From contig CANRBX010000012.1 of assembly GCA_947628955.1 (NCBI GenBank), forward strand, positions 1 to 58,305: a stretch of 58,305 bases of DNA. The letters are read 5' to 3'. Source of the stretch: an uncultured Lachnospiraceae bacterium. GTDB taxonomy: Bacteria; Bacillota; Clostridia; Lachnospirales; Lachnospiraceae. This document shows, piece after piece, positions 1 to 58,305 of this stretch. Below the pieces are notes generated by a model. It saw nothing but the letters and a program-made list of their open reading frames with translations. It was not told where the DNA came from and did not search any database. Each line of letters begins with the position of its first letter. The stretch's first letter is position 1. A program made the position numbers and the translations under genes.

Positions 1-137
1 GCTTATTTTATAGGAATTTCCTGGGGTGTTTCAATTTTGGGGATGCTCGATGGCATACCTAATTGCAATCGTTACAGATTAAATTTTTATTAAATGTGAG
101 ATTTTCCACCATTTTAGCACGCAAAAAATCAGTTTTG

Positions 138-168
138 TTACCAAAAAATTACCAGCGTAGTGTATAAT
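138..168 (+). promoter_or_regulatory. Adhesin promoter with 11-bp-spaced direct repeats (SARP/BTAD-type)
   Basis: The −10 element TATAAT lies at 163-168. There is no good −35 hexamer at 17 bp. Instead TTACCA occurs at 138-143 and again at 149-154, exactly 11 bp apart, and the second copy ends 8 bp before the −10. Activators of the SARP/BTAD family are known to use direct repeats 11 bp apart with the last repeat 8 bp upstream of the −10. The same TTACCA-N8-TATAAT layout precedes the BTAD regulator gene near 56.6 kb. Transcription would start near 175 and give a leader of about 435 nt. Bases 1-137 hold no gene that I can see. Confidence 0.6.
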
Positions 169-242
169 ATATAACGTGCAGACAGAAATATAATTATTTC
201 CGGAAAAGGTTGTGTGTCATATGAGGGAGAGATATAATCTTT

Positions 243-320
<78 letters not shown>

Positions 321-609: not shown

Positions 610-3600
610 ATGAAGATCAGGAGTTGGAACAGAGTGCTGGCAATGCTTCTTGCAGTGGCGATGGCTGTAAATTCCCAGAGCACCATGGCACTGGCGAAAG
701 TTATTGGTATGAGGCAGGGCGGCGTCCAGCAGCAGGAAACCCCTGGAATCGGGAATCCGGAGACTTTCGGAGACGAGAATGCAGTGCTGAACACGGTCAC
801 GTTCGTGAAAATGGAGGGGGCTGTGATTAAGGTCGGCGATGAAGAGATCGACAATGAAGGGACGGCAGAGGCGAAGGACGGGACGATCATCTTCTCCGTC
901 TTCCCCGAGGAAGGATACGAGATCACCCGCGTGCTGGTGGACGGCGAAGAGGAAGCCGAACACACAGCAGACGAAGAGGGCGAAGAGAATGCGTACGAGT
1001 ACATAATCGAGCACATTCAGACAGACGAGACCATTGTCAGCGTGGAGACGCAGGCCGTGGAGACGGAAAAAGTATCCGAGGCCGAGAGCGGGGCACAGAC
1101 TCCTGCGGAGACAGAGACGCAGGCTGTGGTGGGAGAAACCGTGACGGAAGCGGAGACAACGGTTCCGGCAGAGCAGACTGAGATGGCTGCACAGGAAGAG
1201 ACCGCGACCGAGGGCGTACAGACTGAGACGGCAGCTGAGACGCAGATAGTGGCAGAAGAGCCTGTAACCGAGGCTGCACAGACCGAGACTGAGACGCAGA
1301 CAGTGGCGGAAGAGCCTGTAACCGAGAGTGTACAGACCGAGGCCGTGGCAGAAGCGGACACAACGCTTCCGGCAGAGCAGGTTACTGAGACGGAGCAGAC
1401 CGAGACCGAGACGGTAACAGAGACGCAGGTCGTGACGGAAGAGACGGCGACTGAGGGCGCACAGACTGAGGGAGTGACAGAAGCGGACGCACTGGCTCCG
1501 GCAGAGCAGGTCACTGAGGCAGAGCAGACTGAGAACGAGACTGAAATGCAGACAGTGGCGGAAGAGCCTGTAACTGAAAACGTACAGACTGAGGGAGTGA
1601 CAGAAGCGGATACAACGGCTCCGGCAGAACAGATCACTGAGACAGAGCAGACCGAGACAGAGACTGAAGCAGTGATCGAGACGGCACAGACCGAGGCAGC
1701 GGCGGAAGCGGCGCAGACTGAGGAAGCAACAGAGGCTCCGGCACAGAACCCGGCTCTGACAGCAGGAGATATGGGAATGGACGGCCCGTCGTTTGACGGA
1801 CAATCCATCGGCGGATATTCTATCGGCGGATCCCTGCCCGGCACACCGATCATGAGAGTACCTGGAAGCGAAGAGAAGTCAACAGAGGCTCCGGCAGATC
1901 AGACCGAAGTAGAGACTGAAGCTGCGCAGACGGAGGAAGTGACCGAGGCGGCGACGGACGTCACGGCGGCAGCGGACGGCAGCGTGACGGTAAGCGCGGC
2001 GGAGGGCGTGCTCCCGGCCGGGACGCAGGTGGAAACGGCAGCAGCGGATCAGGACGCGGCGATGGATGCGGTAAGCGCGCAGCTGCAGCAGGAAGATCCG
2101 GAACTGAACCTGAAAGATGTTTACGTGGCGGATATTACCCTGAAAGATGCGGACGGAAACGCAATCCAGCCGAACGGCGACGTGACCGTGACGATTACTG
2201 GCCTTACGGTACCGGAGGGTGCGACCTGGGCGGCGGTTTACCACATTGACGCGGACGGCGCGGCCACCAAGGTGGCGGATGTTGTTCCGGCGGAAACCGT
2301 GAGCTTTACCGCAAGCCATTTCAGCACCTACGCGGTAGCGTTCGGAAGCAAACCCGCATTCACGACGCCAGCGCAGAACCAGACTCCGACAGCGGGAGAT
2401 ATGGGAATGGACGGCCTGTCGTTTGACGGACAGATACCTGTGACGACAGGAACAAAAAATGGAATGACTACTATCGATGGAATTCCTCAGCCAATCGCTG
2501 CCGGAATGAGTCCTCAGACAGTATATGTCTATGTTGCCGTTGAAGGCGATTTCAGAAATGTTATAGGAGAGCCTTGGAATAATGCATATGGTAACAATGG
2601 TATAACTTGGGTTGTTGTTGGTAAAATTGATGGTGTAAATTTGCCTGACGTGAATAATTGGAAACAGAATAAGGGGAAGGACTATGCCTCAACGTTTGGG
2701 GAAGAAAATTTGAAGGCCTTGCTTAAAAATAATCTTCAGAGATGGACAACAAGAGGTAGTGTACCGCAGAATTTGAATAAACTGCTGGATTATTACTTTG
2801 AGGATATTGAAGTAAACTATGATGGAACTGGTTCAAAATATGGACTTTATGTTACCAATACTGCCAGTGGATATAGTATGCCATATGGTGGGAATTATTG
2901 GCATCTCGATCTCTATCTTAATGTGAGGCCATACGAAAATCTTGCTATCGAGAAGAAAGTCATAAATGACGAGAATGGTACAAAAAAATTTAAAGAAGGA
3001 GAGACAGTAGAATTTGAGATCACTGTTACAAATAAAGGAACTACGACTTTAAGCAACATTCATGTGACAGATGAACTTTCCAGAGCCGCACTTAAACAGG
3101 GCAGCGGCTATACTATTCAAGACGGTCAGGCTGTGATTGGTACTCTTAATAAAGGTGCAATAGTCACAATCAAGGCATCTTATGTTGTGCAGAAAGATGA
3201 CCTTGGAAAAGGAACAATCACTAACCATGCTGTTGCGAAGTGGGGAAGTAATACCGTTCGTGGTCAGGATACCTTTAATGTAGCAGATGGGACTATAAAT
3301 GTTACGATTCAAAAAAATTGGGATCACAAAGGAGCCGACGAGACGGATAAGAAAACCGAGGCATCTTTCCAGTTGCTGAGGGATGGAAAACTCGTTGGAA
3401 GTCCAGTGACAATACATGAGAATAATTCCTATACATGGGAAAATCAGCCAATAGGTAACTATTCGATCTCTGAGGGTTCTGTAGACGGTTATAATTCAGA
3501 GATATCGGAGCCCAATGTTGATGATAAAGGGAATATTACTTTTACGGTGACCAATACTTTTACCGGTAAAGATATAATGGCTGACGTCGCTGCAATGAAA

Positions 3601-6600
3601 AAATGGGCAGGTGTCGAAGAAGGAAATACACTTCCTGACTCAGTTCACCTGCAGATTAAGGAGGGCACAAGTGTTGTCGCTGAGGGCGATGTCAAGGCTG
3701 AGAGCGAATGGAAACTTACAAAAGAACTGCCGAAGTATGACAGCAATGGCAACAAGATTATCTACACGGCAGATGAAGAGTCTGTGCCGAATGGGTATGA
3801 AAAAACAACCGACGGCCTGACTGTCACGAATAAATACACCGGTGGCGAAACGAGCGTCGATGTGAAAAAGGTATGGGAACCGGCAGGTCTCGAACATGAT
3901 TCGGTCACGGTGACGCTGAAGAACGGTGATGCAGAAGAAGGAACACTGAGTCTGTCGGCTGAGAATGAATGGAAAGGAACTTTTGATAACCTCCGCAAGT
4001 ATGGGACGGATGGAAATCCCATCAACTATACGGTGGAAGAGATCCGTGTGGACGGCTACACGTCAAAAGTTACTGGTTCCATGGAGGAAGGTTTCGTTAT
4101 CACAAACACACTGCAGACAGGTTCTCTGATAATAAAAAAGACTGTAAAAGCACCGGAAGGTACAGAAACTGGTGCATTTAGCTTTACGATTACTGGTCCG
4201 TTTGTGGGAGAATCCGTTTCTGGAAAGGACGGTAGCACGTATCCTGTGACTTCGAGCGGCGAAGGCACCGGTACGGTCAAGGTTGAGGTAGCAGCGGGTG
4301 GCAGTGTCACATTGACAGTACCTGCAGGTACATATACAGTGGCGGAGACCGGAGCAGAAGGAAACAAAGTAACAGTAAGCGGGCATGATTATACCGTTTC
4401 TCCGGCTTCTCAGAATGTGACGGTGGAAACGGACGACAGTGAAACGGTTACGTTTACCAATACGATCGCAGACCATAAAGAGATTACTGTTACCAAGACC
4501 TGGGATGACCAGGGTAATAAGTATGGCCTGCGTCCGGAACCATTTGCAGTGACGCTCACAGGAGAAGGAAAAGAATATTCTGTGAATAACTGGAGCGGCA
4601 CAGATAGCAGCATCTGGAGCGGTACGGTATCTGTACCTGCATATGATGCAGATGGTGTAGCAATTACCTATACGGTAACAGAGACTACCGATGTGCATTA
4701 CACGGCGGGTGCGGGTAATACAGCTGCAATCACGCCGGCACAGGGCGAGGATTCTGTGGAGCTGAAAAACTCTCTGAAGACGGGCAGCCTTACCTTCCAC
4801 AAGATAGTAAAAGGACTCGGAGAGGAAGAGGCAAGGGAGGATACGTTTAAATTCACGGTTACCGCTCCGGATGGAGTAACAGGTCTGGAAACCAGTTATT
4901 CGTTACAGAATGATGGGAATATGACTTTGTCCGGTATTCCTCTGGGTGCGTACACGGTGACAGAGACCGGGACAGAGGGATTGAGCCAGCATGTCTATAA
5001 GACCAGTGTAGATGGCAAAGAGGAGAAAGAAACAACTGTGACTCTCACAGAGGAGAGTAGCAGCGCAGATGTCACCTTTACCAATACGGCACAGACTGTC
5101 AATTTTGATTTGAGTGCAGGACTGGGTGAAATTGCGACCAAGACCCTGAACGGCCGTGCCATGAGACAAGACGAGTTTTCCTTTGCTGTGACGGACAAGG
5201 CAGGAACGCAGGTAGCGACCGGTTCTAATCTGGCAGCGAATTCGGGCGAGATAGCGGCAATTGATTTCGACGGCGGGACTTTAACCTTTACAAAGACGGG
5301 TATATATACCTATGTGATAACGGAGCAGATTGAGGGTGTGAATCCGCAGAATGGCATTGCTTACGATACCAGTTCTTTCAAAGTACAGGTTACAGTAAGT
5401 GAGGATGAGAACGGCGGCTTGAAAGCAAAGATCACAGGAATAAAGAAGGTAGATGGAGATATTGAAAAAGAGGTAGAAAAGGCTGCGTTTGTAAACGAAT
5501 ATTCTACAATGCCGACCTCTTTCTCTCTTAGCGGTACAAAAGAGCTTACAGGACGGCCGCTGGAGGGTGGCGATTTCACCTTTGAGATTACCCAGGTGGC
5601 GGACGATCAAGGGAAGGAATTAACGAATGATGATGTGAGGGCGAATCCTGCAAGCGCAACGGTTTTAAATAATATAGATGGTCAGTTTACAGAAAACTTC
5701 AGCTTCTCTGCTGCGGGAACCTACTATTTTAAGATAACGGAGCGGAATGGCGGAGAATCCGGCATGATATATGATGGGCATTCTTATGTCGTGGCGGTAC
5801 AGGTTACAGATAACGGCAATGGTACACTGGCTGCAAAGCCTGTGAATGATGCGGAGCTTTCGATATTATTTAAGAATACCTATGAAGCAAAGGGAAGCTA
5901 TGCCGTTAAGGCAAAGAAAACCCTGAAGGGCAGAACCCTGAACAACGGCGAGTTTAACTTTACACTTACGCCTGAGGGTAGTGCGCCGATGCCGGCAGGC
6001 CAGGATTCTCTGATTGCCTCCAATGATGTCAATGGTAACATCAGCTTCAATGAGATTCCGTTTACACAGGATGATATCGGTAAAACCTATACGTATACCC
6101 TGAAGGAAGCGGAAGGAAACTTAAACGGTGTAACATATGATCAGAATTCCTATACAGTAACGGTTACGGTAAAGGATGCCGGGAATGGCAAGTTAGCGAT
6201 TTCGCAGAACACCGTACCAGAATTTGTGAATACTTTTGATCATGGCACCACGGAAATAACAGGAACCAAGACCTGGCTGGATGGAAACAATGAGAGCAAT
6301 ACGCGCCCGGAAAAACTGACTCTGACACTGTATGCAAACGGAAATCCAGTGGAAAACGCTGTGCCAGAATGGACAAAAACAGAGAACAGCAATAAGTGGA
6401 TGTATAGGTTCACTAATCTTAAGAAGTTTACCGAGACGGGTGATGTGATCAATTATACGGTGCAGGAGAGCTTGCCGGAAGGCAGCGCATATGAGTTGGT
6501 ACCTAGTGAAGGATATAACTTCACCAACCGGCTGAAGGATAATCGCGATGTGACGGTCAGCGGTACAAAGACATGGGTGGATCCGGAAGGTACACAGCAC

Positions 6601-55925: not shown

Positions 55926-55997
55926 TGAAAAGAGATTAATTTGAGTCGATATGCAGGGAGAAACTACAGAACAAAAGAAAAAATGGAGGTGTTTCAA

Positions 55998-56327
55998 ATG
56001 AGTGGGGTAAGACAGAAGGTACAGGAGATGATCGCGGCATATTCGTGCTGTGCGGAGCTTAAGGCGGCCGGGCAGGCATGGCTTGATGCGGAGGGAACGG
56101 ATCAGGAGAAGACTGCGACGGAGAATCTGCTGGCGGAGATCGAGGCGGATGTCATGTCGATTGACGGCCTGATCGCATTTGCGGGCTCGGAGGCCGGTGC
56201 AAAGGTGTTCGGAGACAGGGCGGCCGCGATATTGGAGCATGCGAAGGAAGTCAAGGCGAACGGCGGCATGTACTGCGACTGTCCGGCCTGCACGGCGGCG
56301 CTTGCAGTGAAAGCCATGCTGAGCTGA
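55998..56327 (+). CDS. Small cysteine-containing conserved protein
   Basis: This 109-residue soluble protein has SCCAELKAAGQAWLDAEGT, MSIDGLIAFAGSEAGAKVFG and a C-terminal CDCPACTAAL cluster. Similar proteins in Lachnospiraceae are often labelled molecular chaperone Hsp90 in databases, but it has none of the Hsp90 domains and is much too small, so that name is misleading. The cysteines suggest metal binding or redox sensing. The start at 55998 follows TGGAGGT. A degenerate 12-16-bp repeat (about 56340-56400) and a weak hairpin with TTTTT (56412-56456) follow. Confidence 0.75.
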   Translation: MSGVRQKVQEMIAAYSCCAELKAAGQAWLDAEGTDQEKTATENLLAEIEADVMSIDGLIAFAGSEAGAKVFGDRAAAILEHAKEVKANGGMYCDCPACTAALAVKAMLS

Positions 56328-56561
56328 AGTAATGTAAAAGGGTCCCATAAAAGGGGGATCCCGAAAGAGAAACCCCAAAAGGGAGACCGTAAAAGACGGA
56401 TGGCGTTCTATGAGAAACGGCCGGATGCTTTCGCGGTTTTCTTTTTGTCGTAAAAGTAAGCGTATGTAAATATGCCAACTTTAATGTTGATAGCAAATAT
56501 CAAGGATTTTCTCCTGTATGTCAAGTAATAAAAAAAGTTTTTTCCAACTTTTTGAGCTTTG

Positions 56562-56593
56562 TTACGTGTCGTGTTACCAACAGGTCTTATAAT
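56562..56593 (+). promoter_or_regulatory. Promoter of the BTAD-regulator operon
   Basis: TATAAT (56588-56593) lies inside the inverted repeat GGTC-N7-GACC. TTACCA at 56574-56579 ends 8 bp before it, and a related GTTACG sits 12 bp further up, inside TTTGTTAC. The adhesin promoter at 138-168 has the same TTTGTTAC, TTACCA and 8-bp gap to TATAAT. This suggests autoregulation by the BTAD protein. The rest of 56460-56802 is AT-rich; it would form a leader of about 200 nt and holds no further gene that I recognise. Confidence 0.55.
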
Positions 56594-56802: not shown

Positions 56803-57027
56803 ATGAACAAAAAGCAGGTATTCATATTGGAGGTTATGAACAACCAGAAGGGTACATGGCAGGGACAGCTCCGCTGGATCGATGGAAAGAAAGACCGCTC
56901 CTTCCGAAGCGCTCTGGAACTGCTTCATCTGGTTGATTCTGTGATCAATGAAGAAGAAGACAAGCCGGCCGACCCGGCAGCCATGTGGAGCACGGGGACA
57001 GTCGGCAATCAGAAGGATTTGCTTTGA
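56803..57027 (+). CDS. Small conserved protein upstream of the BTAD regulator
   Basis: This 74-residue protein begins MNKKQVFILEVMNNQKGTWQ and contains GQLRWIDGKKDRSFRSALEL. It is predicted to be a small beta-hairpin plus helix protein. No named family is certain. The ribosome site AGAAAGGA is good. It lies 18 bp before the regulator gene and was probably transcribed with it; small proteins of this sort recur ahead of BTAD regulators in related bacteria as far as I recall, which would suggest a functional link. Confidence 0.65.
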   Translation: MNKKQVFILEVMNNQKGTWQGQLRWIDGKKDRSFRSALELLHLVDSVINEEEDKPADPAAMWSTGTVGNQKDLL

Positions 57028-57906: not shown

Positions 57907-57921
57907 TTTCGGTCATGCCGC
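57898..57921 (-). terminator. Perfect 9-bp hairpin overlapping the recombinase stop
   Basis: GCGGCATGA (57898-57906) pairs perfectly with TCATGCCGC (57913-57921) across a six-base loop and includes the stop codons of both converging genes. There is no T tract, so it may act as a weak bidirectional terminator. Confidence 0.5.
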
Positions 57922-58305
57922 GCTTCCGTTTATGAGGTCGTTCAAAAGTGAGGCAGGGAGTATCCCGATATAGTTGTAGCTGATGTCTACATCCTGTACC
58001 CGGTGTCCGCTGGACTTGTCCGGCGCGTGAACGTAGACCGCCTTGACCAGATCGTTCAGGATTGCAGATGTAAGCTCCGTCAGACAGAGATACTTCTTCA
58101 CCGTGCGGATGAAACGGTCTACATTGTCCGCCTGATCCTCCTGCTCGGAGATTTCCTTAGTCAGAACAGTAATTCTTTCCCGCAGCTCCGTTTGCTCCTT
58201 TTCGTAGTCGTCGGAAAGCATTTGAAATCTCGCCTCACTCAGCCGTCCCGCTACCATATCCTCATAGATCCGCTTGAAAAGCCTGTCAAGCTCGGCGATA
58301 CGGTT
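57913..58305 (-). CDS. Large serine recombinase, C-terminal part (partial)
   Basis: The frame is open to the window edge, 131 codons including the stop. It reads AELDRLFKRIYEDMVAGRLS, a coiled-coil with KEQTELRERITVLTKEISEQ, and ends with LVKAVYVHAPDKSSGHRVQD and ISYNYIG. This matches the C-terminal zinc-ribbon-following and DUF4368 region of TndX/TnpX-type recombinases that move conjugative and mobilisable elements. The catalytic serine domain lies outside the window. It belongs to the element interrupting the BTAD gene. Confidence 0.88.
   Translation of the reverse strand, partial: NRIAELDRLFKRIYEDMVAGRLSEARFQMLSDDYEKEQTELRERITVLTKEISEQEDQADNVDRFIRTVKKYLCLTELTSAILNDLVKAVYVHAPDKSSGHRVQDVDISYNYIGILPASLLNDLINGSAA

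Follow-up and report, generated by a model that had tools for sequence, protein, structure and literature searches.

SARP-type promoter boxes before giant surface-protein genes and BTAD-regulator operons in a Lachnospiraceae bacterium: a candidate adhesin regulon

In gut Firmicutes, a regulon of surface adhesins appears to be controlled through promoters built like those of SARP regulators. This computational analysis started from 58,305 nucleotides of DNA from an uncultured Lachnospiraceae bacterium (contig CANRBX010000012.1 of assembly GCA_947628955.1; hereafter the window), which is one whole contig (C12) of an assembly of 3,499,446 bases in 136 contigs that is 93.8% complete. Two of its promoters, one before the gene of a giant surface protein (the adhesin) and one before the operon of a regulator with a BTAD domain, carry the same motif, a pair of direct repeats just upstream of a -10 element. 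We consider it likely (probability roughly 0.8) that both motifs are operators of one AfsR/SARP-type regulon, whose members are giant surface proteins and the operons of the regulators themselves. In actinomycetes such as Streptomyces, SARPs are familiar as activators that switch on antibiotic gene clusters. An earlier note on this DNA had suggested that the window's regulator, or a paralogue, activates the adhesin and itself; the regulon proposed here is of that kind, is larger than that note supposed, and likely includes a sensor of cyclic di-GMP (c-di-GMP).

A paired box specific to two gene classes

The adhesin promoter holds TTACCA at 138-143 and again at 149-154 (11 bp apart), with an 8-bp gap to TATAAT at 163-168, just as the earlier note had it. 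The repeats that it described before the BTAD operon were recovered to within one base, TTTGTTAC lying at 56558-56565 (the note began it at 56559) and TTACCA at 56574-56579, and the 12 bp between these repeats and the 8-bp gap to TATAAT at 56588-56593 were found as described (Table 1). The pattern TTACN{6,8}TKACCN{7,11}TATAAT has two matches in the window and none in any of 100 dinucleotide shuffles of it. A looser pattern that also allows TGAC in the first position has a third window match at 3548, within the adhesin coding sequence, which we take to be chance.

The earlier note had also suggested that the motif be sought across the whole genome, and this search gave nine sites, all of them before genes of two classes: the four close BTAD paralogues and five loci of giant surface proteins. 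Of two strict patterns, TTACCN{4,7}TTACCN{7,10}TATAAT found the adhesin only, and TTACN{5,9}TTACCAN{7,9}TATAAT found the adhesin and the window's BTAD operon only (no match in the reversed control of either). The TTAC-TKACC pattern with an exact TATAAT has five matches, which are the adhesin and all four close BTAD genes; when the -10 element was relaxed (TTACN{6,8}TKACCN{7,11}TANNNT) there were ten, the same five with TATAAT and five that are scattered. Four further sites, on contigs C35, C129, C130 and C131, were found with TGACN{6,7}TKACN{9,10}TATAAT (reversed control 0). The list of nine may be incomplete, as TGAC-first boxes were sought with these two spacer ranges and TATAAT only. The ORFs that follow the four additional sites are giant and secreted (3322 aa; 2953 aa; 659 then 2523 aa; 658 then 2329 aa), most of them still open at the end of the fetched stretch, and they contain Cna_B or FctA domains.

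The presence of the motif in both window promoters is not chance. From the base composition of the window, about 0.05 sites of the form TKACC/TKAC/TATAAT (four spacings) are expected in a genome of this size; among the nine observed, six are of this kind. Single matches of the loose TTAC-TKACC-TATAAT pattern do occur in 88 of 299 genomes of the family, about as often as those of its reversed control as judged by eye, which is what chance matches in AT-rich promoter sequence would give. We nonetheless regard chance as extremely improbable and reject it on the shuffles, the controls of the TATAAT patterns and the consistency of the gene classes, all nine sites preceding the same two.

Aligned, the nine sites give the consensus GTKACC-N5/6-(A/G)TKACC-N9/10-TATAAT (K = G or T); the earlier note's paired TTACC-type repeats thus stand, and its half-site has to be broadened to GTKACC. 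Seven sites have repeats 11 bp apart and two have them 12 bp apart; between the second 6-mer and TATAAT there are 9 bp at seven sites and 10 bp at the other two (8 and 9 bp, respectively, when counted from the 7-mer). At all nine sites the best match to TTGACA at 16-18 bp spacing has only 1 to 3 of 6 bases. SARP promoters are recognized by direct repeats 11 or 22 bp apart, a 3' repeat 8 bp from the -10 element and a box that overlies a poor -35 element, and all three features are found here. Mean pairwise identity over the nine sites is 81% and 88% in the half-sites and 36% and 31% in the flanks; for five loci picked as unrelated it is 78% and 83% in the half-sites and 39% and 28% in the flanks. 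Inheritance from a recent promoter duplication, without functional constraint, would account for the C129 and C130 upstream regions, which are 93% identical. That pair apart, common descent of the promoter regions fails as an explanation because the half-sites are conserved and the flanks are not, and unrelated surface proteins of genomes outside the genus are preceded by this box too; on these grounds we reject duplication as highly improbable.

Table 1. Positions of the promoter elements and genes discussed, in window coordinates
Feature	Position	Strand	Remarks
Upstream half-site GTTACC, adhesin SARP-type box	137..142	+	Sequence read; nine-site consensus
Downstream half-site ATTACC, adhesin box, 11 bp after the first	148..153	+	Sequence read; nine-site consensus
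-10 TATAAT, adhesin promoter P1	163..168	+	Best -35 only 2/6 to TTGACA
Promoter P2, TTGTGT-N17-TATAAT, sigma-A-like	210..238	+	Similar arrangement before other (GACA)n arrays in the genus
(GACA)14 tetranucleotide repeat	246..301	+	At predicted P2 transcript start
Hairpin, terminator/attenuator-like	297..317	+	Repeat end pairs with TTCTGTC, then U-rich
Giant surface protein (adhesin), 5119 aa	610..15969	+	Signal peptide (by eye); Cna_B / FctA / DUF7507 / DUF11 repeats; C-terminal sorting-like KTGDETP
Upstream half-site GTTACG, BTAD-operon box	56561..56566	+	Sequence read; nine-site consensus
Downstream half-site GTTACC, BTAD-operon box, 12 bp after the first	56573..56578	+	
-10 TATAAT, BTAD operon	56588..56593	+	
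Small ORF, 74 aa, family ..KQVFILEV..WQGQLRW..	56803..57027	+	Relatives follow many boxes
SARP-type regulator (winged helix + BTAD), 286 aa	57046..57906	+	Truncated
Recombinase-like ORF (DUF4368)	57913..58305	-	Runs off contig end; abuts truncated BTAD gene

The regulator and its degenerate GGDEF domain

A protein search of the genome found BTAD domains in five places: the window copy, three close paralogues with identities of 41-63% and, on contig C24, a distant paralogue (27%). When the upstream regions were read, each of the four close BTAD genes proved to have the box, and no box was seen upstream of the C24 paralogue, whose promoter looks ordinary by eye. The regulators have the domain order of the SARP family, an N-terminal OmpR-type winged helix followed by BTAD, and match AfsR in homology and in fold (the latter by VIA-align search). 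For residue counts we aligned 64 homologues, near-duplicates included, leaving out sequences shorter than 380 aa, the window copy among them; thinning left 61 at 98% and 54 at 90% identity, and counts are given for the 54. The base-contact residue R92 of AfsR is kept as Arg in 54/54, and at the position of another, T88, there is a substitution to Asn in 53/54. The SARP reading of the earlier note thus draws support from the genome-wide specificity of the box, its recurrence at four close BTAD paralogues and in other species, and the homology and fold shared with AfsR.

The intact paralogues carry a third domain, a degenerate GGDEF domain, at the C-terminus and are 404-405 aa long in the two closest (405 aa on C17). 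The window copy abuts an ORF with DUF4368, which we take to be the C-terminal domain of large serine recombinases, and was probably interrupted by insertion of a mobile element just before the GGDEF-like domain, this being the simplest reading. Since the window copy ends at residue 286 while the intact paralogues carry the third domain, a paralogue is the likelier activator.

The regulator's C-terminus has the GGDEF fold expected of PelD-like receptors. The catalytic GG(D/E)E occurs in 0/54 homologues and is replaced by S-x-x-Q (Ser in 47/54, with Gly in 5; Gln in 53/54), and the I-site is kept, with R340 in 53/54, D343 in 54/54 and R371 in 54/54. The spacing of these residues is that of the I-site of PleD. 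Because RxxD is also common in active cyclases, its conservation alone is no proof of c-di-GMP binding. The spacing also resembles that of R363, D366 and R395 in Bacillus cereus PelD, for which Ala at these positions left c-di-GMP binding undetected (PMC7112168). We regard it as probable that c-di-GMP gates the regulator's activity, since the GGDEF domain of the intact copies is catalytically dead and its I-site is conserved.

Proposed mechanism and relation to known systems

The mechanism that we infer is as follows. BTAD regulators (the window copy and/or the three intact paralogues) would bind side by side on two GTKACC half-sites, 11-12 bp apart, that take the place of a -35 element, and, like AfsR, would recruit sigma-A RNA polymerase to the TATAAT that lies 9 (or 10) bp past the second 6-mer. 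The predicted targets are giant signal-peptide surface proteins of the Cna_B/FctA type, together with the regulators' own operons, so that autoregulation would be positive. The dead GGDEF domain with its I-site would allow c-di-GMP to gate the regulator's activity.

Such a system would differ from AfsR, DnrI and ActII-ORF4 in its Firmicute host, its GTKACC half-site and its targets, which for SARPs are antibiotic genes and here are giant surface adhesins. The third domain differs as well: AfsR has C-terminal NOD and TPR domains and EmbR of Mycobacterium tuberculosis has an FHA domain, whereas here it is GGDEF-like. As in PelD and PopA, c-di-GMP receptors with a degenerate GGDEF domain, GG(D/E)EF is lost while the RxxD and second Arg of the I-site are kept; PelD, however, controls a polysaccharide synthase after translation, and the domain described here is part of a DNA-binding activator. 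The SipW-BsaA biofilm operon of Clostridium perfringens resembles one cluster described below (genome G077) in its SipW-dependent secretion; it is run by the BsaS/BsaR two-component system, and neither SARP nor BTAD occurs in the text of the paper on it (PMC7395162). The earlier note knew of no SARP control of adhesins in Firmicutes, and we likewise found no description of SARP-controlled surface proteins in Firmicutes, nor of c-di-GMP reception by any SARP-GGDEF fusion, in the literature searched, most subscription papers being outside its reach. A review of c-di-GMP effectors does not mention SARP or BTAD in its main text (PMC12564702). The regulon would be a candidate answer to how gut species control their very large surface proteins, and its simple motif offers a means of listing the adhesin regulon of unstudied species. 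c-di-GMP is a signal molecule known from biofilms, and the conserved I-site provides a testable link from it to adhesin transcription.

Recurrence of the box and regulator in other genomes

Among the 299 family genomes the source genome has the most loose-pattern matches (five, with one in its reversed control), and the next highest have three. In the genus, a P0003 homologue (E 1e-3 or better) is present in 31/47 genomes. The 11-bp form TKACC-N5-(A/G)TKAC makes up 29 of 64 matches in the genus and occurs in 14/24 genomes whose homologue is close (E below 1e-60) versus 0/23 of the others; the Fisher p of 8e-6 is indicative only, because the form was chosen after the matches had been seen and the genomes are related. 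The remaining 35 matches are spread evenly (12/24 versus 13/23 genomes). More DNA was fetched for 16 genus sites outside the source genome, and at four of them the box is less than 50 bp from the contig end. Eleven of the other 12 precede ORFs that are secreted or giant (by-eye calls of signal peptides), and one precedes a small ORF with a BTAD gene behind it. In two of the eleven the signal peptide and the giant ORF are in different frames: at L186 (G334 C11) and L193 (G329 C102) a run of G lies just after the signal-peptide start, and a giant ORF of 2275 or 2406 aa, respectively, is in another frame, so phase variation of the giant surface protein is possible.

For the family search a pattern was fixed beforehand, TGACCNNNNNRTGACN{9,10}TATAAT, and it gave 11 matches in 9/299 genomes (reversed control 1). 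Of the nine matches outside the genus, five sit 44-77 nt before a signal-peptide ORF called by a heuristic; a sixth (L237) looks secreted and was missed by the heuristic, two lead to unrelated genes (one of these matches is inside a coding sequence), and for one there is no clear gene. Among 29 matches of the loose control, 2 fall within 150 nt of a signal-peptide ORF and 15 inside coding sequence; three of the control matches (L021, L037 and L038) are likewise followed by signal-peptide ORFs and may be related to the box. Genome G077 has three boxes within 10 kb around a gene for a SARP-GGDEF-like BTAD protein (L282, C18:28000-44000), in a cluster where the signal peptidase model TIGR02228 and the SipW-type model TIGR04088 score over their cut-offs and the BsaA and SipW models score below theirs. 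The box of G292 is separated by 2.5 kb from a BTAD gene.

We tentatively propose a widespread family of c-di-GMP-gated SARPs in Lachnospiraceae and related Clostridia, in which an AfsR-type module joined to a dead GGDEF domain with intact I-site would activate giant sortase-type adhesins, SipW-dependent matrix proteins and its own operon; the window copy, if not inert, would then be a sensor-less, signal-independent "small SARP".

Competing explanations and points against a SARP-type regulon

It is quite improbable, in our judgement, that some other winged-helix regulator binds the boxes and that BTAD genes co-occur with them by linkage in surface-protein operons. Three genomes in which a box precedes a surface protein and BTAD was not detected fit that explanation; against it, every one of the four close BTAD genes is preceded by the box and the distant C24 paralogue does not appear to be, the association within the genus is 14/24 versus 0/23, and the architecture fits the published SARP rule. 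We also think it unlikely, if less so, that the adhesin is expressed mainly from P2, with a transcript that starts at (GACA)14 and meets the hairpin downstream, the repeat number setting expression and the SARP box being secondary. Arrays of six or more GACA copies occur in 14/47 genus genomes, and among the 30 array loci that were fetched and read a similar arrangement recurs, with a TTGAC-like -35, N17, a -10 element, a few bases and (GACA)n, often with a hairpin; a SARP box is absent from most, and a signal-peptide ORF (by eye) usually follows. The window hairpin itself folds with z -2.2, significant, for 290-330 (7/200 shuffles as stable) and z -0.8, not significant, for 243-330. The -35 element of P2 is weak, however, the genes after the arrays at L206 and L208 are of another kind, the repeat forms the end of several contigs, and in the source genome the repeat is found at the adhesin only (9 overlapping matches, as expected of one 14-copy array), with the SARP box at nine loci. 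In G152 the repeat promoter follows a SARP box in tandem, before a BTAD gene, and in G342 the two stand in tandem at a contig end, which suggests two regulatory layers rather than one; expression of the adhesin may have two layers.

Several observations weigh against the boxes being operators of one SARP-type regulon. The five-site exact-TATAAT pattern has one match in the source genome in its reversed control, and the relaxed TANNNT pattern has 13. Two of the nine sites have the 12-bp spacing and two the extra base before the -10 element, one site departing in both. The window regulator is truncated, with its whole SARP part kept, and P2 lies between the SARP box and the adhesin gene. A Pfam search found no BTAD in G037 (96% complete), G245 (80%) or G006 (67%) despite a box before a surface protein (in G037 at one of its two matches), and BTAD is present in only 3/8 of the outside-genus genomes with the fixed motif, a weak test. 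When upstream regions of homologues were scanned for any direct repeat, free of sequence and with the motif-defining loci excluded, 11-bp repeats before the -10 element were not enriched (2/64 regions versus 0-7 at other spacings); in all 75 regions 11 bp occurs in 9, tied with 19 bp (also 9). A box before the gene of the regulator itself, and with it autoregulation by this box, is thus limited to a subset and is not family-wide; most distant homologues are without it. A position weight matrix scan used half-sites taken partly from the regions scanned, which makes its p values optimistic, and counted some genes twice. In at least two genomes (G333, G336) of the Lapin subclade the box stands before surface-protein genes and not before the BTAD gene.

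Minor observations

Upstream of the Lapin BTAD genes (L050, L053-L055), GTCAC-N6-GTCTC lies about 21 bp or more before TATAAT, with a GTGAC half-site downstream of TATAAT, in place of the usual box (by eye). Homopolymers occupy the spacer between box and TATAAT at several sites elsewhere, eight G at five genus sites (G329 C53 and C112; G331 C24 and C211; G334 C37) and nine G between the second half-site and TATAAT at L102 (G340); slippage there could shift the distance from box to -10 element and possibly act as an on/off switch of a SARP promoter. The (GACA)n promoter-hairpin unit, read in the window at 210-320 and at G152 C11 (L202, L289), G342 C36 (L214) and L203-L215, is a possible phase-variable attenuator cassette.

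Upstream of the BTAD operon, a 128-aa ORF at 55941-56327, listed with a TTG start, has no Pfam match, and neither the 74-aa small ORF nor an ORF of about 145 aa after the regulator has a Pfam or NCBIfam match over the curated cut-off. Two families of small proteins (about 70-90 aa and about 145 aa, with a common ..WQG.. segment) accompany the regulator and its targets; members lie at 56803-57027 in the window, at 3010-3453(-) in L009 (P0006) and at 5394-5822 and 12227-12472 in L282. By heuristic synteny counts, a P0006-like ORF is present in 27/48 loci, the small-family profile having also caught a larger ORF, and a same-strand secreted ORF of at least 500 aa in 35/48, some of these being not adhesins or not downstream. 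The two small-protein families are possibly co-regulators.
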